A stretch of 64,000 nucleotides of DNA from Rhodothermales bacterium (GTDB lineage Bacteria; Bacteroidota; Rhodothermia; Rhodothermales; VXPQ01): NCBI GenBank assembly GCA_951812335.1, contig OX638293.1, forward strand, positions 1,224,731 to 1,288,730, written 5' to 3'. The position numbers and the translations under genes are program-made. Below are positions 7,497 through 63,804 of this stretch, one piece after another. The notes beneath the pieces are model-generated. The model was not told the DNA's origin, searched no databases, and saw only the letters and a list, made by a program, of their open reading frames with translations. Position 1 is the first letter of the stretch. Each line of letters opens with the position of its first letter.

Positions 7497-7534
7497 GGGT
7501 ATGGGGTTTTTACCGGGTGCGCCGATCCGACCCG

Positions 7535-7677
7535 TGCGCCTCTCTGCCTCCCGAAGGGCGCTTCCTGCCAGCGATGCCCCGAATGCGCAGTATCCCCCTA
7601 ATTCCGACGATGGAATCATGATGTACTGTACTTGCGAACGTGAAGTGCTGAGCGAAGTGGTTTTGATCAGAGTATCC
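7535..7677 (+). repeat. Truncated copy (D) of the dispersed inverted-repeat element
   Basis: This ~143-bp stretch between menF and menD matches the right half of the full element at 49445-49702. Shared features are TCCCGAAGGGCGCTTC near its left side, TAATTCCGACGATG, GTGAAGTGCTGA and the terminal TGATCAGAGTATCC ending at 7677. The left terminus is absent, since it would fall inside menF. The right end lies 35 bp before the menD start. Confidence 0.85.
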
Positions 7678-19193: not shown

Positions 19194-19901
19194 ATGTCGA
19201 AAAATATCTACGAAATTACGTATGTCGTCAACAGCGTACTCGGCGACGACCAGATAAAGAATCTGGTCAGCCGGATTACGAAGTTTATCGAGAAAGAGGG
19301 CGGCAATATCATTGAAGTGGATGAGTGGGGAGCACAGCGTCTTGCCTATCCCATCGACAAAAAGCGCACCGGGTACTATGTGAATGCCTATTTCGAGGCG
19401 GGGGGCGACCTGATCGCCCGCCTCGAACGCGCGTTGACCCTTGAGGACGATATTCTTCGTTTTCTCACGCTGAAAATGGACGCCGTCATGCTCCGTCACT
19501 ACGAGGAGCGCAAGGAGGCAAGGGCGCGCGCGCAGGCGGAATCTTCGGCTGCCTCGAAGGAGGAGAAGAAAGCCGAGGCGCCCGCCGAGGAGACAAAAGT
19601 CGAAGTGCCCGCTTCGGGCAAGAAAGCCGCCGACGAGCAGGCGGAACCCTCGCCTGCTCCGAAGGAGGAGAAGAAAGCCGAGGCGCTCGCCGAGGAGACA
19701 AAAGTCGAAGTGTCCGCTTCGGGCAAGAAAGCCGCCGACGAGCAGGCGGAACCCTCGCCTGCTTCGAAGGAGGAGGCGCCTGCTGAGGAGAAGAAAGCCG
19801 AAGCATCTGCCCAGGAGGTGAAAGCCGAGGCGCTCGCCCCGAAAAAAGAGACAGAAGCCGAAACGTCCGCTGAGGATGCGAAAGCCGCCGATCGAGCATA
19901 A
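19194..19901 (+). CDS. rpsF: 30S ribosomal protein S6 with long repetitive tail
   Basis: A protein of 235 residues from ATG 19194. Residues 1-~100 are S6 (YEITYVVNSVLGDDQIKNLV; WGAQRLAYPIDKKRTGYYV). The remaining ~130 residues are a low-complexity Ala/Glu/Lys/Ser/Pro tail made partly of a 35-residue tandem repeat. Most S6 proteins are 95-140 residues. rpsR and rplI follow, the standard S6-S18-L9 order. The start is set by the GGGAG site 3-8 bp upstream. Confidence 0.95.
   Translation: MSKNIYEITYVVNSVLGDDQIKNLVSRITKFIEKEGGNIIEVDEWGAQRLAYPIDKKRTGYYVNAYFEAGGDLIARLERALTLEDDILRFLTLKMDAVMLRHYEERKEARARAQAESSAASKEEKKAEAPAEETKVEVPASGKKAADEQAEPSPAPKEEKKAEALAEETKVEVSASGKKAADEQAEPSPASKEEAPAEEKKAEASAQEVKAEALAPKKETEAETSAEDAKAADRA
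19536..19773 (+). repeat. 105-bp coding tandem repeat in the rpsF tail
   Basis: Two near-identical 105-bp units start at 19571 and 19676, preceded by a partial unit from ~19536. They encode 35-residue blocks beginning KAEAPAEETKVEVPASGKKA. The period is divisible by three, so copy-number change would keep the frame. The tail is expected to be disordered and highly charged. Confidence 0.9.
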
Positions 19902-44285: not shown

Positions 44286-44303
44286 GTTTTGATCAGAGTA
44301 TCC
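44286..44303. repeat. Isolated end (E) of the dispersed inverted-repeat element
   Basis: The 18 bases GTTTTGATCAGAGTATCC match the right terminus of the full element but without the interior. It lies between the stop of the PVC-type gene and the start of the PhyH gene. It may be a remnant of a deleted copy. Confidence 0.7.
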
Positions 44304-46922
44304 TTAATTGTCTTGTTCGTCGCTTTCCGCCTGCTCTACGAACTGGTTGAGGCCGTCGATAATCACGGCCTGTTTATCCGCGTCTTCCAGCGTGCCCAGG
44401 TACCCGGACAGCAAGGCGAGCGCCTCTTCCGTGCCCGTAGCTGCGATGCGGCTTACGGTGAAGGGCAAGATACGGGGCAACTCGGCCGAGAGCGCCATGT
44501 CCATGGCCCGGGGCATGTCTGTCGGCGCCAGAGGCTCCAGGGCATACCATGCCATCAGCGGGATATTCCGGTCTCCGGCGTCTTCGGCCCGTTTCGTGAG
44601 CGCGTCCAGCGCATCCCATCGCCGATCGGGCGCCATGCGCTGGAGGGCGCTTGCGATGTAGAGCCGGACCAGGGCGGAAGCATCCTCCCCGGCCATTCGC
44701 GCGAACGCCTGCGCCGCCTCTTCGGGCACGTTCCGGTCTTCGACCAGAAGATGGATCGCCCATGCCCGGACGTGTTCGTTGTCGTGGTCGAGCAGGCCGG
44801 TCAGCGACTCGTCCGAAAGGCCGCCTGTTACATGCAGCGCCCAGAGTGCCCGCAGCTTCCGCGTATCGTCCGGATTTTCCTCGAACCGGGTCCATAGCGC
44901 TTCGTGCACGGCTTCGTCCGATCCCCGGTCCTGCAGGATGCGCCGCGCGGTGCGCACGTACCAGTCGTTCGGGTGCATCTGGAGTTCGGCCAGTTCCAGG
45001 GAAGAGAGCCGCTCCAGATCGACCGGCGTCCACTCGTCGTTTTCGTGCGAAATCCGGTAGATGCGCCCGGTCTCGTGGTCGTGGCTATCGGGGTTGCCGT
45101 GATGGCACTGGTTCTTGTCGTACCAGTCGATGACATGCACGGACCCGTCCGGGCCGTATACGAGGTCCAGCATCTGGGACCAACTGTCGTGAGTCAGCAG
45201 AAAATCCTCTCCGTGCCGCCCCACGTACCCGGAGCCGCTTCGTTCGAGAATGTCCGTGTTTGCCCGGAATCCGTGGATGTTGTGCATGAAAATGCGCCCG
45301 TGGTATGTTTCCGGCCACGAGCCGCCCTGGTAGATCATGGCGCCTGCATGGGCATGTCCGCCGCCCGCTGCACCGGACCGCCGGTTGCCCGCATGGGGTC
45401 CCAGATTGCCCACCCAGTGCACATGGTCGCCGATCGGGTCCAGATCGTCGTACACGTACGGATTGAAATGCGCGCCGGCCTGCCGGATCATACGGGCGCC
45501 GGGAATGACATGGTGCAAGTGCGGAATGACGCAGGCCGTCAGGAACAGTTGCCCGTGCGCATCCCAGTCCAGCCCCCAGGAATTGCTGGTGCCGTACGCA
45601 AACACTTCGAAGATGTGCTTCGTCGGGTGATACCGCCATACGCCCGCATTGAGTTTTTCGCGGTCGGCGTCTTCCGCCCCCGGCTTGCCCACGTTCGAGT
45701 GGGTGAATACGCCGTGCGTACCGTAGAGCCAGCCGTCCGGTCCCCACATGAAGGAATTCAGGGTCTCGTGCGTGTCGTGGTAGCCGAACCCGTCCAGTAG
45801 CACCTCCGGGGGACCTGCGGGCCGGTCTCCGGATGCGTCGACAGGGATGTAGAGCAAGTAGGGAGCCGCCCCGACCCATACCCCTCCGAATCCCAGTTCC
45901 AGGCCGCTCACCAGATTCAATCCTTCCATGAAGACTTTCCGCACATCGAACGTCCCGTCTCCGTCGGTGTCTTCAAAAATGAGAATCCGATCTTTGCCTT
46001 CGCCTTCCGGGGCCCGGACCGGATAGGTCCGCCCCTCGACAATCCACACGCGCCCCCGGTGGTCGAGCGCCATTGCAATCGGATTGACGACATCCGGTTC
46101 CGTCGCCGCCAGTTGCACCTGGAAACCGTCCGGCACGGTCATCGTTTGTGCGGCTTCCTGTGCGCTTCCTCCTTCCAGCAATACTTCGTCCCAGGCCGGT
46201 AGCCTCGCGATACCGGAAGGATCGAGTTCATCCGGGAAGGAAGGCCGCTCCGCATGAAAACGAAAGTGATCGAAGTTGATGTGCGCATACGCGTTCTCGG
46301 GGATATAGGCTGCCGTGGAGCCGCCGGTGTCCTCGTCCACAAGACGGATGAAGATCGTTTCGCCGACATGCTTCTCCAGATCGGCCACGACGGGACGCAG
46401 GGCAAGGTCGTTGTCGCCGCTCGTCGAAAAAATGACGGCCCCGTCTCCGGCCCGGACCAGTTCCGCCCGGGTGCTTTCCAGCGCACCCCCGGAAATCAGA
46501 AAACTCGCGTACGGATGCGTCACCTCGAAAGGGGAAGACGTCAGCGTACCTTGGCTCGCCGGTCCGTGCACCACGCCGGAACTAACCCAACGGGCGCCCT
46601 TATGCCCGCTGCGCAAGGTCGCCGGTTCCTGTCCGCGCCGTTCCCGCAGCGACTGGATCATTTCCGCGACAACCGCTTCGCCCGAGGCGAACAGGTCGCC
46701 CTCGACGGGTTCGTTTCCGAAGGCTTCGCCTTCGACCGTCCAGTCGGTCAGATCACCTACCTCAAAGTCGAAGTTCAGCGTGCCCCCGTCGGCTGCCGGC
46801 GCATGCCCGGCATCCTGTGCAGCCGCCGGTACAGAATCTATTGAGACGGCGAACAAGACGGCAGCGACGGCAAGGGCGCTGCAAATAAAACCAGGTCGGA
46901 GCAGGGACAGGGCGACAGGCAT
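44304..46922 (-). CDS. PVC-type membrane-bound dehydrogenase domain protein with HEAT repeats
   Basis: A protein of 872 residues from ATG 46922, which has an AGAGG site in front; a longer start at 46982 is possible. Signal peptide ends near PAAAQ. A glucose/sorbosone-dehydrogenase-like beta-propeller (VPDGFQVQLAATEPDVVNPI; NSFMWGPDGWLYGTHGVF) follows, then HEAT repeats at the C-terminus. No heme-binding CxxCH motif was seen, which differs from many family members. The last ~160 residues are homologous to the C-terminus of the 48208 gene. Confidence 0.82.
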   Translation of the reverse strand: MPVALSLLRPGFICSALAVAAVLFAVSIDSVPAAAQDAGHAPAADGGTLNFDFEVGDLTDWTVEGEAFGNEPVEGDLFASGEAVVAEMIQSLRERRGQEPATLRSGHKGARWVSSGVVHGPASQGTLTSSPFEVTHPYASFLISGGALESTRAELVRAGDGAVIFSTSGDNDLALRPVVADLEKHVGETIFIRLVDEDTGGSTAAYIPENAYAHINFDHFRFHAERPSFPDELDPSGIARLPAWDEVLLEGGSAQEAAQTMTVPDGFQVQLAATEPDVVNPIAMALDHRGRVWIVEGRTYPVRAPEGEGKDRILIFEDTDGDGTFDVRKVFMEGLNLVSGLELGFGGVWVGAAPYLLYIPVDASGDRPAGPPEVLLDGFGYHDTHETLNSFMWGPDGWLYGTHGVFTHSNVGKPGAEDADREKLNAGVWRYHPTKHIFEVFAYGTSNSWGLDWDAHGQLFLTACVIPHLHHVIPGARMIRQAGAHFNPYVYDDLDPIGDHVHWVGNLGPHAGNRRSGAAGGGHAHAGAMIYQGGSWPETYHGRIFMHNIHGFRANTDILERSGSGYVGRHGEDFLLTHDSWSQMLDLVYGPDGSVHVIDWYDKNQCHHGNPDSHDHETGRIYRISHENDEWTPVDLERLSSLELAELQMHPNDWYVRTARRILQDRGSDEAVHEALWTRFEENPDDTRKLRALWALHVTGGLSDESLTGLLDHDNEHVRAWAIHLLVEDRNVPEEAAQAFARMAGEDASALVRLYIASALQRMAPDRRWDALDALTKRAEDAGDRNIPLMAWYALEPLAPTDMPRAMDMALSAELPRILPFTVSRIAATGTEEALALLSGYLGTLEDADKQAVIIDGLNQFVEQAESDEQDN

Positions 46923-47004
46923 GGAAACCTCTTGTGGGTAATGTGATATACTGTAACAGGTATTTCTACGCCGGCGCTGCACATGCTCGCATCCGCCGGG
47001 CTGT

Positions 47005-49284: not shown

Positions 49285-49750
49285 AGAGTCTACGGCGTCT
49301 GCTTTGGCCGGGCCGATTAGAAAATGCTCCGCCTATCCGGCATCCGCTTCCTGCAAGCGCATGCACCTCAATCAATATGGCCGAAGAGGCAAACCGCATC
49401 ACGGGATAATTTCACGAAGAATGTAAAATCTTCGCAAAGATGGTGGATACTCTGATTACGTCCGCGAGGTTCAGAGGCTGAGAGGGGTGTGCTGGCAAGG
49501 AAGGACGAAGCAAGGTGGCAGGCCCCACATAATGAGAAATGACGCAGCCAGCATATTTTTGGCAGCTTCCCGAACGGCGCTTCACGCACGCGATGCCTCG
49601 AATCCGCATCGTTTCCTGCTAATTCCGACGATGCAATTATGATACCCTTATAATACGCGCGAATGTGAAGTGCTGATCGAAGTGGATTTAATCAGAGTAT
49701 CCATATTATATTGCTTACTGAATTTACAATGCTCGTATCGCTTAAACATT
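49285..49750. other. 466-bp non-coding gap containing element copy A
   Basis: This divergent gap lies between the cupredoxin gene (minus) and the Gfo/Idh/MocA gene (plus). It contains the full repeat copy A (49445-49702), so promoters for both directions may be displaced or supplied by the repeat. No gene recognised. Confidence 0.6.
49445..49702 (+). repeat. Full copy (A) of a 258-bp dispersed element with terminal inverted repeats
   Basis: The left end reads GGATACTCTGATTA and the right end reads TAATCAGAGTATCC, a perfect 14-bp inverted repeat. The interior has CTGGCAAGGA and GCCAGC arms that can form a long hairpin. The interior has no protein-like frame. It lies 48 bp before the Gfo/Idh/MocA start. 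No clear target-site duplication is visible. Confidence 0.9.
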
Positions 49751-52289: not shown

Positions 52290-52303
52290 TGATCAGAGTA
52301 TCC
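52290..52303. repeat. Isolated end (F) of the dispersed element
   Basis: The 14 bases TGATCAGAGTATCC occur just after the MFS stop and 85 bp before the full copy B. The interior is absent. It may be the relic of an adjacent or earlier copy. Confidence 0.7.
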
Positions 52304-52365: not shown

Positions 52366-52387
52366 GCGCGTCTCTGCGATAATCCAT

Positions 52388-52645
52388 GGGATGCTCTGAT
52401 CAAGTCCACTTCGATCAGCGCTTCACTTTCACGCGTAAAGGACGATATGCTTGCATCGTTGAAATCAGCTAAAAACACGGCGGATTCGGGTCGTCTCGGC
52501 CGTGAAGCGCCCTTCGGGAGGCAGACAGAGGCGCGCTGGCTGTGTCATTCCTCATTTATGTGGGGCCTACCACATTGCTTCGTCATTCCTTGCCAGCGCC
52601 CCCCTTTCAGCCTCTGAATCTTTGCGGACTTAATCAGAGCATCCC
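52388..52645 (-). repeat. Full copy (B) of the dispersed element
   Basis: 258 bp, inverted relative to copy A. Its ends are GGGATGCTCTGATC and TAATCAGAGCATCCC, so both termini share a compensating change (TATC to CATC and its partner). The interior stem GCGCTGGC (52533-52540) / GCCAGCGC (52592-52599) is intact. CATG flanks on both sides may be a target duplication. It ends 36 bp before the DUF1080 start. Confidence 0.9.
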
Positions 52646-52681
52646 ATGCAACAAATCTTTTCTCATCATATCCCTGACGCC

Positions 52682-53489: not shown

Positions 53490-56400
53490 CTACCGCACGA
53501 CCGTGAACGTCCGCATGGCGGAGAAATCCTCGCCCCGGATGCGCAGGATATAGACGCCGCTAGCCAACGCTCCTCCGTCCACGACGAGCGTCTCGATCGT
53601 TTCGGACGCCACCGTGCCGTTCAGGATGCTGCGCACCTCGCGCCCAAGCATGTCGTATAGCGTGGCGCGGACATGTTGCGTGCTGCCGACGGTCAGGTGG
53701 GTGCGGGCCATGCCCTGCGTCGGGTTGGGGTACGCCGGCGACAGATCGAACGCCCGGCCGTATAACTCAGGAGGATCGGGTGGGCGTTCGACCGGGTGTA
53801 CGGCGAGGGTCCGCATCACCGTTCCCCAGTGCGCCGGGTCGCTGCCGAGGCCGGCAACGTTGGTCCGGTACAGCGCAGCTCCTCCGCCGTCCGCGCTCTC
53901 CGGCCATGGCGCCGTATCGGTCCAGGTTACCCGTTCTTCGAGTATTTCCGGAACGAATTCCGGGTCTTCCGCCGGGGGATCGTCCGGGCGGTTCAGTTCG
54001 AGGGTTTCTCCTTCGTTCGCAAGGCGGCCTTCCCAGCCCCCGATCAGCCGCCGTTCGTCGTCCCAGCCGTACGCGAGCCTAAGCGTGGCTTCGTTTTCGG
54101 TTTGAAGGGCCGGGTCGAAGGCCACCACGAACAGACTGTCCCCCGCTGCAAGCCGGAGTCCGTCCGGAAACGTGAAGTCTACGCCCCTCCGCAAGGTCCA
54201 CCCGGTCAGGTTTTCCGTGCCGTTGCCTGCGTTGTAGAGCGCAACGTATTCGAGATTCGGGTTGTTGCCCGGAGGGTGATACATAATCTCCCGGAACACG
54301 ACCTGCGCCGGTCTCGGTGCGCTGTTCGGGCCGCCAAGTGTGGGTTCCTGCAGGGGCACGAAGGCATCGATGCTTCCCGGGGGCAGGCCGATCGTTTCCC
54401 CGGTGCGCGTGGCGCCGAAGGCGACCTCGTCGGCGAACAGGGCGGGGTTCCCGTTCGCATCCGTGGCGGTCAGCCGCACTGCATCGCCGTATGCGCTGCT
54501 GAAGGCGAAGCCGTTTTCGGCGCCGGGGGCATTGAAATCGTTCTCGTCGAAGACAACGTATCCGCCGGCCTCGATGGTCGTCCCGTCGGGTATGCGGTAC
54601 TTGTCCAGCGGGGCGCCGTCGCTCAAAAGCCACCCGCCGATGTCGATCGACTGGCTTGTGGGGTTGTGCAGCTCGATGGCGTCCACCTCAGGGGGATCGC
54701 TGTGCGCAAGCAATTCGTTGACGATCACGTCGCGGAAGGAGGCGCGCGCCGGTGCGCCCGGCGATCCGCCGTATTCGATGCTTGCCCGCCACGCTCCGGC
54801 GCGGTCGCTATCTTCTGCGGCAGCGGGATCCAGCGTCAGCGAACTGCCGCTGCCATCGGCTCTTGCCGGCCAGGCGTCTCCGTCATTGTATTCGATGTGG
54901 ATCAGGCGTTCTCCGGCAGCGTTGCCGAGCGTCAGGGCCTCGCCGCCGTTGCTGAGCCTTCCCGAGGCGTAACTGCCGGCCACATCCGCTGCCGGTCCGT
55001 ACCGCATGCGGAAAGCGTTTTCGCTGGCGGCCACGACGATCCGAGCGCCCGGCGCAAGCATTTCATCCCCGAAGGCGAACGTAATCCCTTCGGTAAACGC
55101 CAGTCCGCCCAGCGCCACCGGCGCATTCGAGGGGTTGTGCAGTTCGATGAATTCGAAATCGTCGTTGTTGTCGAATCCCGCCGCGATTTCCGCGTCGGTG
55201 GGCTCCGTCGGATTGTAATGAATTTCCGCAACGACGAGTCGCGAAGAAACGGGGGAGGCTATCCCTGCAAAATATTCGGCTTCTTCCAGCGCCGACCATA
55301 TGCCTTCGTCCGAGCGGACACGCGCCAGTATCCGATTGTACCCGGATAGGGCTATCCCCATGGTGTCGTACGCCATGGCCGATGCGGAAACGTCCCCGCC
55401 GGGCATGCGGGGGTCGGCGCCGTCCAGCGTATAGAAAACGGTTCCGCCCGACGGCGTCTGCATGGTCAGCGTAAAAGAGTCGGACGATTCGCCTTCCTGG
55501 TGACTGAACACGGGCGCATCCGCGGCCGGATACAGGGGCGCGTCCACGAGGGCATCGCCCGGCCTTCCCGATGCATACCGGCGGGTTCGTTTGAGTTGTT
55601 CGAGGATAACGGGAGTTCGCGTGGAGAGGAACCCGTTTCGTACGGAAGTCACTTCCCGGAGCCAGTCGGTAGGTGTTAAGGGCGGCTCTCTTTTGGAGTC
55701 TCCCCACCGGGCCGATTCCGCAAGAATAATCGGGCGCACTTCGTCGGTCCGACTTGTCCACCGGGCCACGGCCTCCGGGCCGGTCAAGGTCCCGTTTCCG
55801 GACAGGTGGCGCTGCACAAGGTCCGCGAACCGGAGCCGGTATTCGTTCGATCCCATCAACTGCTGCTGCAGCCACTGCGGGTTGCTGAACTGGAACTGGT
55901 CTCCTCCAGGAAAGGGGCCGGTCCGGTTGTGACCGTCCCCGAATTGGGAAGTCGTAAAGAGTGAATGTTCGCTGTCATGCGCAAACCAGGTGAAGCCCCG
56001 CTCGCCGCCGCGCTCCCGGATGCCGAAGAAATTGTTGGTTCCGTTGAACGGCGTAATGGGCGAATCCGTGTTTCCGGTCCAGAAAATGACGAGCATGTAC
56101 TGGATCAGATTGTCCGCATCCAGCAGCACCGGGTAGTCGGGGTTGCGCGATCCGTCCGGGTTCAGCCCTTGCAGTTTCATGTAGAGCGCGTCGCGCTCCC
56201 CCTCCGTGGGCAAGGCGGCCAGCCGATTGGCTTCGTCGTAAAGCAGGCGCCAGTCGTCGAAGACCCCCGCCGTAACCTCCACCGTGTATCCGCCGTCCAG
56301 TCCGGCGGACTTGACGACGTCGTAGTCTTCCGGGTTGCCGCCGAGATACGAAGCGCCGTACCAGTGATCGGATCGTTCCTGGGTTTGGAAGAGTCCCCAG

Positions 56401-58436
56401 TACTGACCGTTCAGATACAAATGGTAATAGCGGCTTCGGGTGTAGGGGACGCCCATGTCGCGCTGCGTATCCCGGGAGAATACCTCCCGGACCATTGTGT
56501 TGGCCGAAGAACCGTTGAACGACCACGAATAATTCTGGGCGGTGCGCAGGTCGAACTTGTCGAATTCGTCCACGCCCTCGTCGCCGAAGAGCGCATAGGC
56601 AAGGATGCTCGGCCCGTATTCGCCCCGGAAGTACAGGCGAAAGGCATGCTTGGGATTCTCGTCGTTGCGGCTCCATCCCCCGCGGATGCGCACGCCCGCG
56701 TTGACCGCGAATCCGTCCCGCCCGCCGTGTCGGGCGCGCGGACCGGTCTCGGGCGGGAAGTCCGGGGGATAGATGAGTTCGATGGAGGCGGGGCGCTCCC
56801 AGTCCCGCCCGTAGTTGAGCGCGTTGGCGTATATCCCCCGTGCGCCGTCGAAGAGGGAGTCGAACGGGAGAACGATAGAGAAGGAGGGGGCGGCCGTCAG
56901 CGCCGCCATCACGTCGTCTTCCTGTCCCTCGACGACATCCGGGTCCATCCCCATATCCACGTCGTTGCCGCCCCAGTACGCAGGCCATCCCTTTGCCACC
57001 ATGTTCGCCCGCGATTGCCGGATCACGTCTTCCGGGAAGACATACGTGCGCGTCACGCTGGACGAGGGCTCGACACCTTCCATGAAGGCGGCGGCGCGCA
57101 CCACGGTCGTTTCGTCTATGTAGAGCGGTCCGGTCCAGGGCGTTCCGTTCTCTTCCGAGGGGTCCGAATGGTCCAGCGTATAGCGGACGATGCTGCCGGG
57201 CGTTTCGGGGAACAGGTACAGCGAGAACGGTTCGTCGAGAATAGCCCCCGCCGCGCTGAACGTGGGCGGCTCGAGGACATCGCTCATGCCCGGCACGTTG
57301 GGCCCGCCCGGCGTGGGCAGTTCGAACCAGGTATACCCTCCGTCGATCAGGCCGTAGGAAACGTCGGGGCGCTGCTCCGGGTATTCCGGCGCGAACTCGG
57401 ATGCGGGTTGCCCGGACGGGTCGATGAGCCCAAGGTATTCGCCGCCGCGGGAAAGGCGGAAGTTGGTATGAAACTCGGTCCGGGAAGCGAACGTGATTTC
57501 CGGGGCCGTCCCTCGGTACGCTGCCGGTTGCGCCTCCGTTTGCAGGGAAAGGAACGGGATGAGCGTAAGGTCCGAGGAGGTGGCGTTTGCATTATGCACC
57601 TCGACGGCCAGCACGTTCGCGCCTGCCCGCAGCAGGTCCTGCGGATTCGATATGGCGAACGGCTCCGGCTCGCCGCCCTGGTAGATCATTGCCTCGTGCA
57701 GGCCCGAAGCCGGGGTGTCGAAGGAGGGGACGCCCGGACTCATGAAACTGCGGGCGATTTCCTGCCCGTTCAGGTACGCCACGAACCCGTCGTCGTAATC
57801 CATGTGCAACACGGCCTGGAGTACGTCGTCCGGGTTGTCCACCGTAAACTCGATGCGCGCGTACAGGGAGAGCAGATTTTCAATATCCACCTCGGTCTGA
57901 ATATCCGCGCCCGCGCCGTCCCGTTCGTATCCGAGCGCACTGGCGCCCTGGTCCCATGCGCTTGCGTCGAACCCCGGCTCGTTCCAGGTAGCCGGGGGTT
58001 GTTCGGTACCCGGAAAATAGCGAAACAGGTCGCCGCGCCGCACCACACTGTTCCACACGCCTGCCCTTGGGCTCCGGTCCTTTCCGGAAGCGAACACGAC
58101 GAAGTATTCGCCGGCGCCCAGTGTTTTTTCCGAAAATATCCACTTGTCCGGCTCATCCTCGTTATCGGTGAGCGCCCATCCGCCGAGATCGATCGCCTGT
58201 CCGGTCGGGTTATGCAGTTCGATCCAGTCCGAAGCGTCGCCGTCCTCGTCGTACAGCGTGGTCGAGTTCGACGCCATGAATTCGTTCACGACCGGCGCCG
58301 CATCCTGCGCAGCAGCGGTTCCGAAAACGAGCGCGAGCAGCGCGATCAGCGCCGGGAATGCCGTCCGGAGGAACTGTCCGATGAAGGACCATGGGGGTGA
58401 GTTTCTGGCAGATCTCAACAAATGGATTGCGTTCAC
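53490..58436 (-). CDS. CotH kinase/lamin-tail/T9SS protein, copy 1
   Basis: A protein of 1,648 residues; start GTG 58436, matched to the ATG of copy 2. Order: signal peptide (TAAAQ), lamin-tail domain 1 (~48-125), a Fn3_assoc/chitobiase-C-like segment (~400-470), a CotH kinase-like domain (~535-900), a second chitobiase-C-like segment, three more lamin-tail domains and a C-terminal T9SS sorting domain (LSPAYPNPTQGMARTHLTVG). CotH kinases phosphorylate surface proteins. A lysine in NPKHAFRLYF and an acidic pair in AHDSEHSLF fit the kinase. It is probably secreted through T9SS. Confidence 0.88.
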   Translation of the reverse strand: MNAIHLLRSARNSPPWSFIGQFLRTAFPALIALLALVFGTAAAQDAAPVVNEFMASNSTTLYDEDGDASDWIELHNPTGQAIDLGGWALTDNEDEPDKWIFSEKTLGAGEYFVVFASGKDRSPRAGVWNSVVRRGDLFRYFPGTEQPPATWNEPGFDASAWDQGASALGYERDGAGADIQTEVDIENLLSLYARIEFTVDNPDDVLQAVLHMDYDDGFVAYLNGQEIARSFMSPGVPSFDTPASGLHEAMIYQGGEPEPFAISNPQDLLRAGANVLAVEVHNANATSSDLTLIPFLSLQTEAQPAAYRGTAPEITFASRTEFHTNFRLSRGGEYLGLIDPSGQPASEFAPEYPEQRPDVSYGLIDGGYTWFELPTPGGPNVPGMSDVLEPPTFSAAGAILDEPFSLYLFPETPGSIVRYTLDHSDPSEENGTPWTGPLYIDETTVVRAAAFMEGVEPSSSVTRTYVFPEDVIRQSRANMVAKGWPAYWGGNDVDMGMDPDVVEGQEDDVMAALTAAPSFSIVLPFDSLFDGARGIYANALNYGRDWERPASIELIYPPDFPPETGPRARHGGRDGFAVNAGVRIRGGWSRNDENPKHAFRLYFRGEYGPSILAYALFGDEGVDEFDKFDLRTAQNYSWSFNGSSANTMVREVFSRDTQRDMGVPYTRSRYYHLYLNGQYWGLFQTQERSDHWYGASYLGGNPEDYDVVKSAGLDGGYTVEVTAGVFDDWRLLYDEANRLAALPTEGERDALYMKLQGLNPDGSRNPDYPVLLDADNLIQYMLVIFWTGNTDSPITPFNGTNNFFGIRERGGERGFTWFAHDSEHSLFTTSQFGDGHNRTGPFPGGDQFQFSNPQWLQQQLMGSNEYRLRFADLVQRHLSGNGTLTGPEAVARWTSRTDEVRPIILAESARWGDSKREPPLTPTDWLREVTSVRNGFLSTRTPVILEQLKRTRRYASGRPGDALVDAPLYPAADAPVFSHQEGESSDSFTLTMQTPSGGTVFYTLDGADPRMPGGDVSASAMAYDTMGIALSGYNRILARVRSDEGIWSALEEAEYFAGIASPVSSRLVVAEIHYNPTEPTDAEIAAGFDNNDDFEFIELHNPSNAPVALGGLAFTEGITFAFGDEMLAPGARIVVAASENAFRMRYGPAADVAGSYASGRLSNGGEALTLGNAAGERLIHIEYNDGDAWPARADGSGSSLTLDPAAAEDSDRAGAWRASIEYGGSPGAPARASFRDVIVNELLAHSDPPEVDAIELHNPTSQSIDIGGWLLSDGAPLDKYRIPDGTTIEAGGYVVFDENDFNAPGAENGFAFSSAYGDAVRLTATDANGNPALFADEVAFGATRTGETIGLPPGSIDAFVPLQEPTLGGPNSAPRPAQVVFREIMYHPPGNNPNLEYVALYNAGNGTENLTGWTLRRGVDFTFPDGLRLAAGDSLFVVAFDPALQTENEATLRLAYGWDDERRLIGGWEGRLANEGETLELNRPDDPPAEDPEFVPEILEERVTWTDTAPWPESADGGGAALYRTNVAGLGSDPAHWGTVMRTLAVHPVERPPDPPELYGRAFDLSPAYPNPTQGMARTHLTVGSTQHVRATLYDMLGREVRSILNGTVASETIETLVVDGGALASGVYILRIRGEDFSAMRTFTVVR

Positions 58437-58860
58437 CGTATAATTCCAGGGGGTATTTGTACAATATATTAAGGATACTCTGATCAAAACCGCTTCGCCC
58501 AGCGCTTCACGTTTGCAAGTGCAGGACGTCATGATTCCATCGTTGAAATCAGCGGGAAACACTGCGGATTCGGAGCGTCGCGGGTGTGAAGCGCCCTTCG
58601 GGAGGCTGCGAGGGATACGCTGGCCGCGTCATTTCTCATTATGTAGGGGGTAGGCCGCACTGCTTCGTTATTCCTTGCCAGCGCACCCCTCGCAGCCTCT
58701 GAGCTTTGCGGACTTAATCAGAGTATCCTAAACAGGAATCCGCCCGTCCGGCAGGATGAGGGTGCTATCGGCGATTTCCTGAGAGTGAGGGATTGTGCAG
58801 AGGGGTTTCGTTCCGTGTTTCGATGTGCATCGGTTCGAACACGGGGATCGCATTGCCCTT
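58437..58860. other. 424-bp gap between the two CotH copies with element copy C
   Basis: This gap holds the promoter region of copy 1 (minus strand) and the full element copy C (58473-58728). Bases 58437-58470 match the sequence before copy 2 (GGGGGTATTTGT), showing that the upstream region was duplicated and then interrupted by the element in copy 1. The rest holds no gene. Confidence 0.65.
58473..58728 (-). repeat. Full copy (C) of the dispersed element
   Basis: 256 bp. Ends are GGATACTCTGATCA and TTAATCAGAGTATCC, with TAA directly repeated on both sides (target-site duplication candidate). Interior arms CGCTGGC and GCCAGCG remain paired although the loop has diverged. It ends 36 bp before the GTG start of CotH copy 1. 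Confidence 0.9.
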
Positions 58861-61800
58861 CTACCGTACGACTGTGAACGTCCGCATGGCGGAGAAATCC
58901 TCGCCCCGGATGCGCAGGATATAGACGCCGCTGGCCAACGCTCCTCCGTCCACGACGAGCGTCTCGATCGTTTCGGAAGCCACCGTACCGTTCAGGATGC
59001 TGCGCACCTCGCGTCCAAGCATGTCGTATAGCGTGGCGCGGACATGTTGCGTGCTGCCGACGGTCAGGTGGGTGCGGGCCATGCCCTGCGTCGGGTTGGG
59101 GTATGCCGGCGACAGATCGAACGCCCGGCCGTACAATTCAGGAGGATCGGGTGGGCGTTCGACCGGGTGTACGGCGAGGATCCGCATCACCGTTCCCCAG
59201 TGCGCCGGATCGCTGCCGAGGCCGGCAACGTTGGTCCGGTACAGCGCAGCCCCTCCGCCGTCCGCGCTTTCGGGCCACGGCGCCGTATCGGTCCAGGTTA
59301 CCCGTTCTTCGAGTATTTCCGGGACGAACGACGGGTCTTCCGCCGGGGGATCGTCCGGGCGGTTCAGTTCGAGGGTTTCTCCTTCGTTCGCAAGGCGGCC
59401 TTCCCAGCCCCCGATCATGCGCCGTTCGTCGCCCCAGTCGTACGCCAGCCGAAGCGTGGCTTCATTCTCGGCTTGAAGGGCCGGGTCGAAGGCCACCACG
59501 AACAGACTGTCCCCCGCTGCAAGCCGGAGTCCGTCCGGAAACGTGAAGTCTACGCCCCTCCGCAAGGTCCACCCGGTCAGGTTTTCCGTGCCGTTGCCTG
59601 CGTTGTAGAGCGCAACGTATTCGAGATTCGGATTGTTGCCCGGAGGGTGATACATAATCTCCCGGAACACGACCTGCGCCGGTCTCGGTGCGCTGTTCGG
59701 GCCGCCAAGTGTGGGTTCCTGCAGGGGCACGAAGGCATCGATGCTTCCCGGGGGCAGGCCGATCGTTTCCCCGGTGCGCGTGGCGCCGAAGGTGACCTCG
59801 TCGGCGAACAGGGCGGGGTTCCCGTTCGCATCCGTGGCGGTCAGCCGCACTGCATCGCCGTATGCGCTGCTGAAGGCGAAGCCGTTTTCGGCGCCGGGGG
59901 CATTGAAATCGTTCTCGTCGAAGACGACGTATCCGCCGGCCTCGATGGTCGTTCCATCAGGGATGCGGTATTTGTCCAGCGGGGCGCCGTCGCTCAAAAG
60001 CCACCCGCCGATGTCGATCGACTGGCTTGTGGGGTTGTGCAGCTCGATGGCGTCCACCTCAGGGGGATCGCTGTGCGCAAGCAATTCGTTGACGATCACG
60101 TCGCGGAAGGAGGCGCGCGCCGCTGCTCCCGGCGATCCGCCGTATTCGATGCTTGCCCGCCACGCTCCGGCGCGGTCGCTATCTTCTGCGGCAGCGGGAT
60201 CCAGCGTCAGCGAACTGCCGCTGCCATCGGCTCTTGCCGGCCAGGCGTCTCCGTCATTGTATTCGATGTGGATCAGGCGTTCTCCGGCAGCGTTGCCGAG
60301 CGTCAGGGCCTCGCCGCCGTTGCTGAGCCTTCCCGAGGCGTAACTGCCGGCCACATCCGCTGCCGGTCCGTACCGCATGCGGAAAGCGTTTTCGCTGGCG
60401 GCCACGACGATCCGAGCGCCCGGCGCAAGCATTTCATCCCCGAAGGCGAACGTAATCCCTTCGGTAAACGCCAGTCCGCCCAGCGCCACCGGCGCATTCG
60501 AGGGGTTGTGCAGTTCGATGAATTCGAAATCGTCGTTGTTGTCGAATCCCGCCGCGATTTCCGCGTCGGTGGGCTCCGTCGGATTGTAATGAATTTCCGC
60601 AACGACGAGTCGCGAAGAAACGGGGGAGGCTATCCCTGCAAAATATTCGGCTTCTTCCAGCGCCGACCATATGCCTTCGTCCGAGCGGACACGCGCCAGT
60701 ATCCGATTGTACCCGGATAGGGCTATCCCCATGGTGTCGTACGCCATGGCCGATGCGGAAACGTCCCCGCCGGGCATGCGGGGGTCGGCGCCGTCCAGCG
60801 TATAGAAAACGGTTCCGCCCGACGGCGTCTGCATGGTCAGCGTAAAAGAGTCGGACGATTCGCCTTCCTGGTGACTGAACACGGGCGCATCCGCGGCCGG
60901 ATACAGGGGCGCGTCCACGAGGGCATCGCCCGGCCTTCCCGATGCATACCGGCGGGTTCGTTTGAGTTGTTCGAGGATAACGGGAGTTCGCGTGGAGAGG
61001 AACCCGTTTCGTACGGAAGTCACTTCCCGGAGCCAGTCGGTAGGTGTTAAGGGCGGCTCTCTTTTGGAGTCTCCCCACCGGGCCGATTCCGCAAGAATAA
61101 TCGGACTCACTTCGTCGGCTCGGGCTTCCCACCGGGTTATGGTCTCTGCCCCGGTCAATGCCCCGTTACCGAAGAGATGACGCTGCGCAAGATCTGCGAA
61201 TCGGAGCCGGTATTCGCTCGATCCCATCAACTGCTGGTGCAGCCACTGCGGGTTGCTGAACTGGAACTGGTCTCCTGCAGGAAAGGGGCCGGTCCGGTTG
61301 TGACTGCCTCGTGAGGAGTTCGGAAAAAGCGAATGCTCGCTGTCGTGCGCAAACCAGGTGAAGCCCCGCTCGCCGCCGCGCTCCCGGATGCCGAAGAAAT
61401 TGTTGGTTTCGTTGGATGGCTTAATCGGCGCATCCGTGTTCCCGGTCCAGAAAATAATGAGCATGTACTGGATCAGATTGTCCGCATCCAGCAGCACCGG
61501 GTAGTCGGAGTTGCGCGATCCGTCCGGGTTCAGCCCTTGCAGCTCCATGTAGAGCGCGTCGCGCTCCCCCTCCGTGGGCAAGGCGGCCAGCCGATTGGCT
61601 TCGTCGTAAAGCAGGCGCCAGTCGTCGAAGACCCCCGCCGTAACCTCCACGGTGTATCCGCCGCCCAGTCCGGCGGACTTGACGACGTCGTAGTCTTCCG
61701 GGTTGCCGCCGAGATAGGTAGCGCCGTACCAGTGATCGGATCGTTCCTGGGTTTGGAAGAGTCCCCAGTACTGACCGTTCAGATACAAATGATAATAGCG

Positions 61801-63804
61801 GCTTCGGGTGTAGGGGACGCCCATGTCCCGCTGGGTATCCCGGGAAAACACTTCGCGAATCATCGTGTTGGCCTGAGAACCACTGCGCGACCACGAATGA
61901 TTCTGGGCGGTGCGCAGGTCGAACTTGTCGAATTCGTCCGCGCCCTCGTCGCCGAAGAGCGTATAGGCAAGGGTGCCCGGTCCGTATTCGCCCCGGAAAT
62001 ACAGGCGGAAGGCATGTTTGGGATTACTGTCTCTGCGACTCACTCCTCCGCGGATGCGCACGCCCGCGTTGACCGCGAATCCGTCCCGCCCGCCGTGCCT
62101 CGCGCGCGGGCCGGTCTCGGGCGGGAAGTCCGGGGGATAGATGAGTTCGATGGAGGCGGGGCGCTCCCAGTCCCGTCCGTAGTTGAGCGCGTTGGCGTAT
62201 ATCCCCCGTGCGCCGTCGAAGAGGGAGTCGAACGGGAGAACGATAGAGAAGGAGGGGGCGGCCGTCAGCGCCGCCATCACGTCGTCTTCCTGTCCTTCGA
62301 CGACATCCGGGTCCATCCCCATATCCACGTCGTTGCCGCCCCAGTACCCAGGCCATCCCTTTGCCACCATGTTCGCCCGCGATTGCCGGATCACGTCTTC
62401 CGGGAAGACATACGTGCGCGTCACGCTGGACGAGGGTTCCAAACCTTCCATGAAGGCGGCGGCGCGCACCACGGTCGTTTCGTCTATGTAGAGCGGTCCG
62501 GCATAGGGCGTCCCGTTCTCTTCCGAGGGGTCCGAATGGTCCAGCGTATAGCGGACGATGCTGCCGGGGGTTTCGGGAAACAGGTACAGCGAGAACGGTT
62601 CCTTGAGAATAGCCCCCGCCGCGCTGAACGTGGGTGGCTCGAGGACATCGCTCATGCCCGGCACGTTGGGCCCGCCCGGCGTGGGCAGTTCGAACCAGGT
62701 ATACCCTCCGTCGATCAGGCCGTAGGAAACGTCGGGGCGCTGCTCCGGGTATTCCGGCGCGAACTCGGATGCGGGTTGCCCGGACGGGTCGATGAGCCCA
62801 AGGTATTCGCCGCCGCGGGAAAGGCGGAAGTTGGTATGAAACTCGGTCCGGGAAGCGAACGTGATTTCCGGGGCCGGCCCCCGGTACGCTGCCGGTTGCG
62901 CCTCCGTTTGCAGGGAAAGGAACGGGATGAGCGTAAGGTCCGAGGAGGTGGCGTTTGCATTGTGCACCTCGACGGCCAGCACGTTCGCGCCTGCCCGCAG
63001 CAGGTCTTGCGGATTCGATATGGCGAACGGCTCCGGGGCGCCGCCCCGGTAGATTGTCGCCTCGTGCAGGCCCGAAGCCGGGGTGTCGAAGGAGGGGACG
63101 CCCGGGCTCATGAAACTGCGGGCGATTTCCTGCCCGTTCAGGTACGCCACGAACCCGTCGTCGTAGTCCATGTGCAACACGGCCTGGAGTACGTCGTCCG
63201 GGTTGTCCACCGTAAACTCGATGCGCGCGTACAGGGAGAGCAGGCTTGCAATGTCCACTTCCGTCTGAATATCCGCGCCCGCAGCATCTCGTTCGTATCC
63301 GAGCGCACTCATTCCCTCGTCCCATTCGCTTGCGTCGAATTCCGGCTCGTTCCAGTTGGCGGGGGGCTGTTCTGTCCCCGGAAAATAGCGAAACAGGTCG
63401 CCGCGCCGCACCACGCTGTTCCAGACGCCTGCCCTTGGGCTCCGGTCCTTTCCGGAAGCGAACACGACGAAGTATTCGCCGGCGTCGAGCGTTTTCCCCG
63501 AAAATATCCATTTGTCCGGCTCATCCTCGTTATCGGTGAGCGCCCATCCGCCGAGGTCGATGGCCTGTCCGGTCGGGTTATGCAGTTCGATCCAGTCCGA
63601 AGCGTCGCCGTCCTCGTCGTACAGCGTGGTCGAGTTCGACGCCATGAATTCGTTCACGACCGGCGCCGCATCCTGCGCGGCAGCGGTTCCGAAAACGAGC
63701 GGGAGCAGCGCGATCGGCGCCGGGAATGCCGCCCTGAAGAACCGTCTGCCGAGGGACCGCGACGACGAGTTTTCGACAGACCCCAACAAATTGATCGCAT
63801 TCAT
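58861..63804 (-). CDS. CotH kinase/lamin-tail/T9SS protein, copy 2
   Basis: A protein of 1,647 residues from ATG 63804, collinear with copy 1 (offset 5,368-5,371 bp). Domain order is identical: signal peptide, lamin-tail domain, chitobiase-C-like segment, CotH kinase-like domain, chitobiase-C-like segment, three lamin-tail domains and T9SS sorting domain. About 970 bp near the middle (60134-61104) shows no differences from copy 1. Substitutions cluster in the CotH domain (for example GVSRRDSNPKHAF versus GWSRNDENPKHAF). One codon is deleted near 61315. Confidence 0.88.
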   Translation of the reverse strand: MNAINLLGSVENSSSRSLGRRFFRAAFPAPIALLPLVFGTAAAQDAAPVVNEFMASNSTTLYDEDGDASDWIELHNPTGQAIDLGGWALTDNEDEPDKWIFSGKTLDAGEYFVVFASGKDRSPRAGVWNSVVRRGDLFRYFPGTEQPPANWNEPEFDASEWDEGMSALGYERDAAGADIQTEVDIASLLSLYARIEFTVDNPDDVLQAVLHMDYDDGFVAYLNGQEIARSFMSPGVPSFDTPASGLHEATIYRGGAPEPFAISNPQDLLRAGANVLAVEVHNANATSSDLTLIPFLSLQTEAQPAAYRGPAPEITFASRTEFHTNFRLSRGGEYLGLIDPSGQPASEFAPEYPEQRPDVSYGLIDGGYTWFELPTPGGPNVPGMSDVLEPPTFSAAGAILKEPFSLYLFPETPGSIVRYTLDHSDPSEENGTPYAGPLYIDETTVVRAAAFMEGLEPSSSVTRTYVFPEDVIRQSRANMVAKGWPGYWGGNDVDMGMDPDVVEGQEDDVMAALTAAPSFSIVLPFDSLFDGARGIYANALNYGRDWERPASIELIYPPDFPPETGPRARHGGRDGFAVNAGVRIRGGVSRRDSNPKHAFRLYFRGEYGPGTLAYTLFGDEGADEFDKFDLRTAQNHSWSRSGSQANTMIREVFSRDTQRDMGVPYTRSRYYHLYLNGQYWGLFQTQERSDHWYGATYLGGNPEDYDVVKSAGLGGGYTVEVTAGVFDDWRLLYDEANRLAALPTEGERDALYMELQGLNPDGSRNSDYPVLLDADNLIQYMLIIFWTGNTDAPIKPSNETNNFFGIRERGGERGFTWFAHDSEHSLFPNSSRGSHNRTGPFPAGDQFQFSNPQWLHQQLMGSSEYRLRFADLAQRHLFGNGALTGAETITRWEARADEVSPIILAESARWGDSKREPPLTPTDWLREVTSVRNGFLSTRTPVILEQLKRTRRYASGRPGDALVDAPLYPAADAPVFSHQEGESSDSFTLTMQTPSGGTVFYTLDGADPRMPGGDVSASAMAYDTMGIALSGYNRILARVRSDEGIWSALEEAEYFAGIASPVSSRLVVAEIHYNPTEPTDAEIAAGFDNNDDFEFIELHNPSNAPVALGGLAFTEGITFAFGDEMLAPGARIVVAASENAFRMRYGPAADVAGSYASGRLSNGGEALTLGNAAGERLIHIEYNDGDAWPARADGSGSSLTLDPAAAEDSDRAGAWRASIEYGGSPGAAARASFRDVIVNELLAHSDPPEVDAIELHNPTSQSIDIGGWLLSDGAPLDKYRIPDGTTIEAGGYVVFDENDFNAPGAENGFAFSSAYGDAVRLTATDANGNPALFADEVTFGATRTGETIGLPPGSIDAFVPLQEPTLGGPNSAPRPAQVVFREIMYHPPGNNPNLEYVALYNAGNGTENLTGWTLRRGVDFTFPDGLRLAAGDSLFVVAFDPALQAENEATLRLAYDWGDERRMIGGWEGRLANEGETLELNRPDDPPAEDPSFVPEILEERVTWTDTAPWPESADGGGAALYRTNVAGLGSDPAHWGTVMRILAVHPVERPPDPPELYGRAFDLSPAYPNPTQGMARTHLTVGSTQHVRATLYDMLGREVRSILNGTVASETIETLVVDGGALASGVYILRIRGEDFSAMRTFTVVR

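Follow-up and report, generated by a model that had tools for sequence, protein, structure and literature searches.

The 258-bp non-coding stretch at 49445-49702 recurs within the 64-kb window (the whole stretch of Rhodothermales DNA analysed here, 64,000 nucleotides), and it raises the question of what kind of element it is, which enzyme spread it and whether its strong hairpin serves the cell. A sequence-only reading had called it a dispersed, MITE-like, non-autonomous element, which agrees with the copy number, the 4-bp target duplications, the empty sites and, in a genus-mate, an IS5-family transposase that shares the ends, all reported below. The element is almost certainly a gene-less MITE with IS5-type ends, presumably moved in trans by an IS5-type transposase.

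Copies in the window

The copies and related features of the window are the following.

7533-7677, minus strand: truncated MITE copy, ~145 bp, one end retained
44290-44303, minus strand: solo MITE end, immediately past the stop codon of ORF 44304-46982
49445-49702, minus strand: full MITE copy 1, 258 bp, between divergent genes
52290-52303, minus strand: solo MITE end, downstream of an MFS transporter gene
52385-52388, no strand: left CATG target-site duplication of copy 2, from the empty-site comparison with genome G001
52389-52644, plus strand: full MITE copy 2, 256 bp, GGATGC/GCATCC subfamily
52645-52648, no strand: right CATG target-site duplication of copy 2, from the same comparison with G001
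58473-58728, plus strand: full MITE copy 3, 256 bp, flanked by a tandem pair of CotH-domain genes
58473-58493, plus strand: left terminal inverted repeat of copy 3, GGATACTCTGATCAAAACCGC, forming one side of the terminal stem
58499-58596 (approximate), minus strand: internal hairpin arm B of copy 3, from folding and covariation
58604-58704 (approximate), minus strand: internal hairpin arm A of copy 3, containing the GCTGGC/GCCAGC stem, from folding and covariation
58708-58728, minus strand: right terminal inverted repeat of copy 3, reading GGATACTCTGATTAAGTCCGC on the minus strand

The earlier count of three full copies stands, but it overlooked the truncated copy and the two solo ends. The limits given for copies 1 and 3 are exact, whereas copy 2, placed at 52388-52645, is a real copy whose limits included one base of the CATG duplication too many on each side. 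The outer ends of copies 1, 2 and 3 read GGATACTCTGATTA..., GGATGCTCTGATCA... and GGATACTCTGATCA..., respectively, with matching inverted ends, and the 14-mer GGATACTCTGATTA, allowing up to two mismatches, has 9 matches in the window compared to 0.15 expected. The copies appear to carry no open frame of their own, as had been stated: the ORF calls that enter them are extensions of neighbouring genes. This matters for annotation, as mechanical gene calls run frames into MITE copies.

Copy number, range and subfamilies

The genome of the window (G000) is one contig of 2,686,407 bases (2.69 Mb), in which the exact ends GGATRCTCTGATYA occur 272 times, versus 0 for a reversed-pattern control. An HMM of the element was applied to an 864 kb sample, made up of the window and 40 stretches of 20 kb picked for holding ends, and it found 72 copies that reach 240 bp or more, another 19 measuring 100-239 bp and 49 below that length; scaling this sample by the exact ends gives an estimate of ~120 full copies genome-wide, plus many fragments. 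The window itself, a stretch taken without selection for ends, holds three full copies and one truncated copy. The genome-wide search thus bore out the dispersed nature of the element, with many further copies and conserved ends. The element measures 254-258 bp with terminal inverted repeats of about 20 bp, and its copies are mainly intergenic; their orientation relative to same-strand flanking genes is near random (22 same, 17 opposite, a count that rests on crude longest-ORF gene calls). Each of the six genomes searched within the genus carries the family, among them the genus-mate G004 (OX638295.1, assembled from a Rhodothermales metagenome), whereas 34 genomes from other families of the order Rhodothermales all lack it.

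The joint change of both termini from TATCC to CATCC, first noticed in copy 2, is real and recurs in other copies. At position 5 of both ends, 67 of the 81 full copies of G000 have A/T and 9 have G/C, with few one-sided cases (Fisher p = 9e-9, related copies being counted as independent). The joint A-to-G change (9/81 copies) is a subfamily trait; the proposal that the two ends are functionally paired is a fair one, yet unproven. Copies within the genome have a median likeness of 83%, while subfamilies at separate places are 97-99% alike, and the family is therefore old and its bursts recent. Clusters of tandem and inverted copies are found at two distant places (L065, 1001-3423, and L088, 1001-2071), three of the copies being 99.6-100% alike; a composite block seems to have been duplicated here.

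Target duplications and empty sites

Among 98 end pairs, 29 are flanked by identical 4-bp sequences, whereas 1000 shuffled re-pairings that preserve base preferences average 8.2 such pairs and never exceed 15. No excess over the re-pairings was seen for flanks of 3, 5 or 6 bp in the same 98 pairs, and a lesser one was seen for 2 bp (15 versus 5.5). TTAA is the most frequent target duplication. Non-palindromic duplications are also present (TACA, TTGA, ACGA, TAAC and TGAA), and those such as TGAA, TAAC and ACGA therefore indicate direct duplication. Target duplications of the YTAR type are characteristic of IS5 (PMC10359306); in the present family the duplication is 4 bp long, but targets outside YTAR also occur (CATG, TGCA and ACGA), which counts against an IS5-type mover.

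Comparisons within the genus revealed the corresponding empty sites. At a TTAA site (L036 versus L060), G004 reads CGTACATTTAA[el]TTAAGACCGC, whereas G000 has the element-free CGTACATTTAATACCGC; at a TACA site (L034 versus L083), G001 reads GGCTACA[el]TACATTGATTC and G000 the element-free GGCTACATCGATTC. For copy 2, CCATG[el]CATGCAAC in G000 faces the empty site CCATACAAC in G001, and at the same site G004 lacks the element together with about ten flanking bases. The site of copy 3, CAATATATTAA[el]TAAACAG, is empty in G003 (CAATATAAACAG) and also in G004. Copy 1 is absent from G001, G002 and G003; G004 has a truncated element ending at the same point, and this insertion therefore predates the split of G000 and G004. 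Among 12 full-length G000 sites comparable with G004, 7 are empty there, and at L073 (12135) one copy has inserted into the TTAA that belongs to the end of another. Such empty sites are ready-made markers for comparing the species of the genus.

Solo ends and 37-bp double ends exist alongside the full copies, and with the numerous short palindromic intergenic units they resemble palindromes of the REPIN/BIME type, for whose spread a single-copy RAYT (Y1) transposase would be responsible. This reading is scarcely credible, however, because the Y1_Tnp model (PF01797) has no match in G000 and because clean 4-bp duplications and defined ends of ~20 bp indicate a DDE enzyme. Moreover, the forms of exactly 37 bp fit deletions between TCAG repeats near both ends, by which they probably arose, and for that reason we also rejected them as separate elements.

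Search for the mobilising transposase

The absence of a matching transposase gene noted earlier holds for the window, and in all of G000 the search found none except for one 29-residue remnant outside the window. G000 has no match to the N-terminal part of the IS5-family transposase of G004 described below. Several candidates were rejected as partners or autonomous copies. The one DDE_Tnp_1 gene of G000 belongs to an unrelated insertion sequence whose ends (GGCGTGTTAACACT) differ from those of the MITE, and IS701-type DDE_5 transposases have no representative in the genus. Two ends lying 1822 bp apart (L089, 1001-2822; G000:C1:1401389-1403210) enclose a DASS-type transporter gene, a name assigned by eye; both are right-type ends with unequal flanks, which suggests that they belong to two copies, separate or truncated, and do not bound a composite transposon. 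An unrelated insertion sequence, bounded by TAGGGCGTGTTAACACTAA and carrying a frame-split DDE transposase, was seen once, at L056 (G000:C1:636280-636654), and a similar one occurs in G002 (L101).

A transposase with the same ends was found in the genus-mate G004, in which broken copies of an IS5-family gene sit between or beside the GGATACTCTGAT ends that the MITE has. Three DDE_Tnp_1 matches in G004 adjoin MITE-type ends. At L115/L104 both ends are retained 666 bp apart with the gene between them internally deleted, and a fourth piece, at L127, retains the left end; parts of one insertion sequence thus lie at four places in G004 and none of the four is intact. Of the models compared, NF033581 of the IS5 family is the nearest to the protein pieces, which also match PF01609 and PF05598; the C-terminal piece by itself scores 139.7 bits to NF033581, for which the cut-off is 140. 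No intact partner was found in the six genomes of the genus: besides the broken copies of G004, G000 and G001 have short remnants only, and G002, G003 and G005 have none.

A search of the GTDB release 220 species representatives placed the closest relatives outside the genus (59-68% identity) in Gammaproteobacteria and in two bins, one of Gemmatimonadetes and one of Latescibacterota. Four of these relatives have intact genes of 313-315 aa between GGAACCTCTGATTAAGTCCC-like ends, with TTAA or CTAA flanks; the right end of the MITE, GGATACTCTGATTAAGTCCG, differs from GGAACCTCTGATTAAGTCCC at 3 of 20 bases. In short form, the ends of the intact relatives elsewhere are GGAACCTCTGATTAAGTCC. Similarity between the MITE and the known copies of the insertion sequence is limited to the ends of ~20 bp; instead of descending from the G004 insertion sequence by internal deletion, the interior may come from elsewhere or from a different or older parent copy.

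In the mechanism that we propose, a full-length IS5-type insertion sequence would have supplied a DDE transposase that bound the MITE's ends of ~20 bp (GGATACTCTGATYAA..CC) and moved the MITE in trans, duplicating AT-rich targets of 4 bp with a preference for TTAA; an intact partner would bear GGATACTCTGATTTAATCC/GGATACTCTGATCAATCCGG ends. What we observed directly is the sharing of ends with an IS5-family element of the genus, the 4-bp duplications, the empty orthologous sites, the lineage-specific insertions, the subfamilies up to 98-99% alike and the internally deleted derivatives. From these we infer that the mover was probably the G004-type IS5 enzyme, or else a closely related one that G000 has since lost, and that the family now likely persists in G000 in the absence of a functional partner. 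Alternatively, an unrelated resident transposase, for example that of the single other IS5-like insertion sequence, might still move the family in G000, considering that some subfamilies look recent (98-99% alike) and that many insertions are missing in G004, yet no partner was found in G000 itself. We consider this unlikely, since, among the transposase families searched, the sole resident DDE_Tnp_1 element has different ends. With a MITE abundant in every genome examined and a parent insertion sequence that is either broken or lost, this uncultured genus of Rhodothermales offers a system for studying how MITEs outlive their parents.

Folding and conservation of orthologous copies

The internal GCTGGC/GCCAGC arms had been said to fold into a long hairpin, and the folds computed for copy 3 are indeed strong. 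They comprise a terminal stem plus two long arms and reach -122.9 kcal/mol (z -8.5) for RNA and -60.2 (z -5.0) for DNA. The Alifold consensus from the MAFFT alignment alone was poor, and we therefore used the 65 pairs common to the consensus folds of both strands. On these pairs, two-sided changes that preserve pairing number 150 cells, compared to 1-13 when the partners are slid, which indicates that the inverted repeats have been maintained. Deviations of the G-U and A-C types, counted on strand-neutral pairs, stand at 305:231 overall and at 98:102 in arm B; the G-U surplus is moderate, is concentrated in arm A and the terminal stem, and stems from a small number of columns that the copies share by descent. 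Judged from these alignments, it does not establish selection on RNA.

These properties bear on the possibility that the element is, or became, a functional structured RNA, or an RNA-level regulatory hairpin, its copies being co-transcribed and their three-armed fold stabilising, terminating or processing transcripts. The very strong fold and the compensatory stem changes would agree with such a role, as would the observation that one strand folds better than the other in 89 of 101 copies. But the similar numbers of G-U and A-C deviations are what is expected of inverted repeats maintained at the DNA level, the orientation to flanking genes is close to random, and Rfam models gave no match in the copies, with only one chance-level snoRNA match outside them.

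The orthologous copies of G000 and G004 also have to be weighed here. Two orthologous elements are 99.2% alike where most flanks are 90-94% alike, although the downstream flank of one of them is 99.3% alike as well, which points to short recombination tracts between the lineages that could explain the high likeness; the sites compared are few and partly picked for high scores, and selection is neither shown nor excluded by them. Other orthologues decay, copy 1 being truncated in G004. In one region (G000:C1:2400619 and 2403500 versus L158 of G004), elements and flanks are 98-100% identical, while the two species are otherwise about 91-93% alike; this suggests either recent exchange or strong conservation. 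Taken together, we regard the functional RNA as quite unlikely. It is also conceivable that the host co-opted the MITE after the loss of the transposase, so that selection now keeps the three-armed hairpin for some function in the cell, exerted by the dispersed copies as RNA or as DNA. If true, this would account for the compensatory changes and for the few orthologues that are better conserved than their flanks, but we hold it to be very unlikely.

Comparison with known elements

A literature search that included the end sequences found no description of the present family in the library covered. We take it to be a new MITE family, of a kind of element that is already known. ERIC/IMU and Correia elements are short, hairpin-forming, intergenic and of high copy number, like the present MITE; they differ from it in their TA target duplication, in place of 4 bp, and in their hosts. 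IS5-family insertion sequences (NF033581) share with it the ends, the 4-bp duplications, the TTAA/CTAA targets and a transposase of the same family in a genus-mate, whereas the MITE is gene-less and resembles them over the outermost 20 bp or so. Among described elements, MITECca01 of Cardinium cOegibbosus comes nearest (169 copies); it also has a Bacteroidota host, is about 240 bp long, mostly intergenic and derived from an insertion sequence, namely IS982, of which intact copies lie in the same genome (PMC9769881). MITECca01 is confined to one strain and its IS982 parent is intact; the present MITE is genus-wide, has IS5-type ends, and its parent is missing or broken. The MITEs of Porphyromonas gingivalis, as far as their description goes, are likewise non-coding elements of Bacteroidota with terminal inverted repeats (for example PMC4596501).

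Other features of the window

The CotH/lamin-tail-domain genes around copy 3 (53490-63804) are two tandem genes of ~5 kb each that are near-identical in parts (94-97%). G003 and G004 have a single CotH/lamin-tail gene where the window has two, copy 3 lying between the two. At 19529-19897, the window holds a coding-like stretch rich in Glu, Ala and Lys, with tandem repeats of periods 105 bp and about 27 bp.
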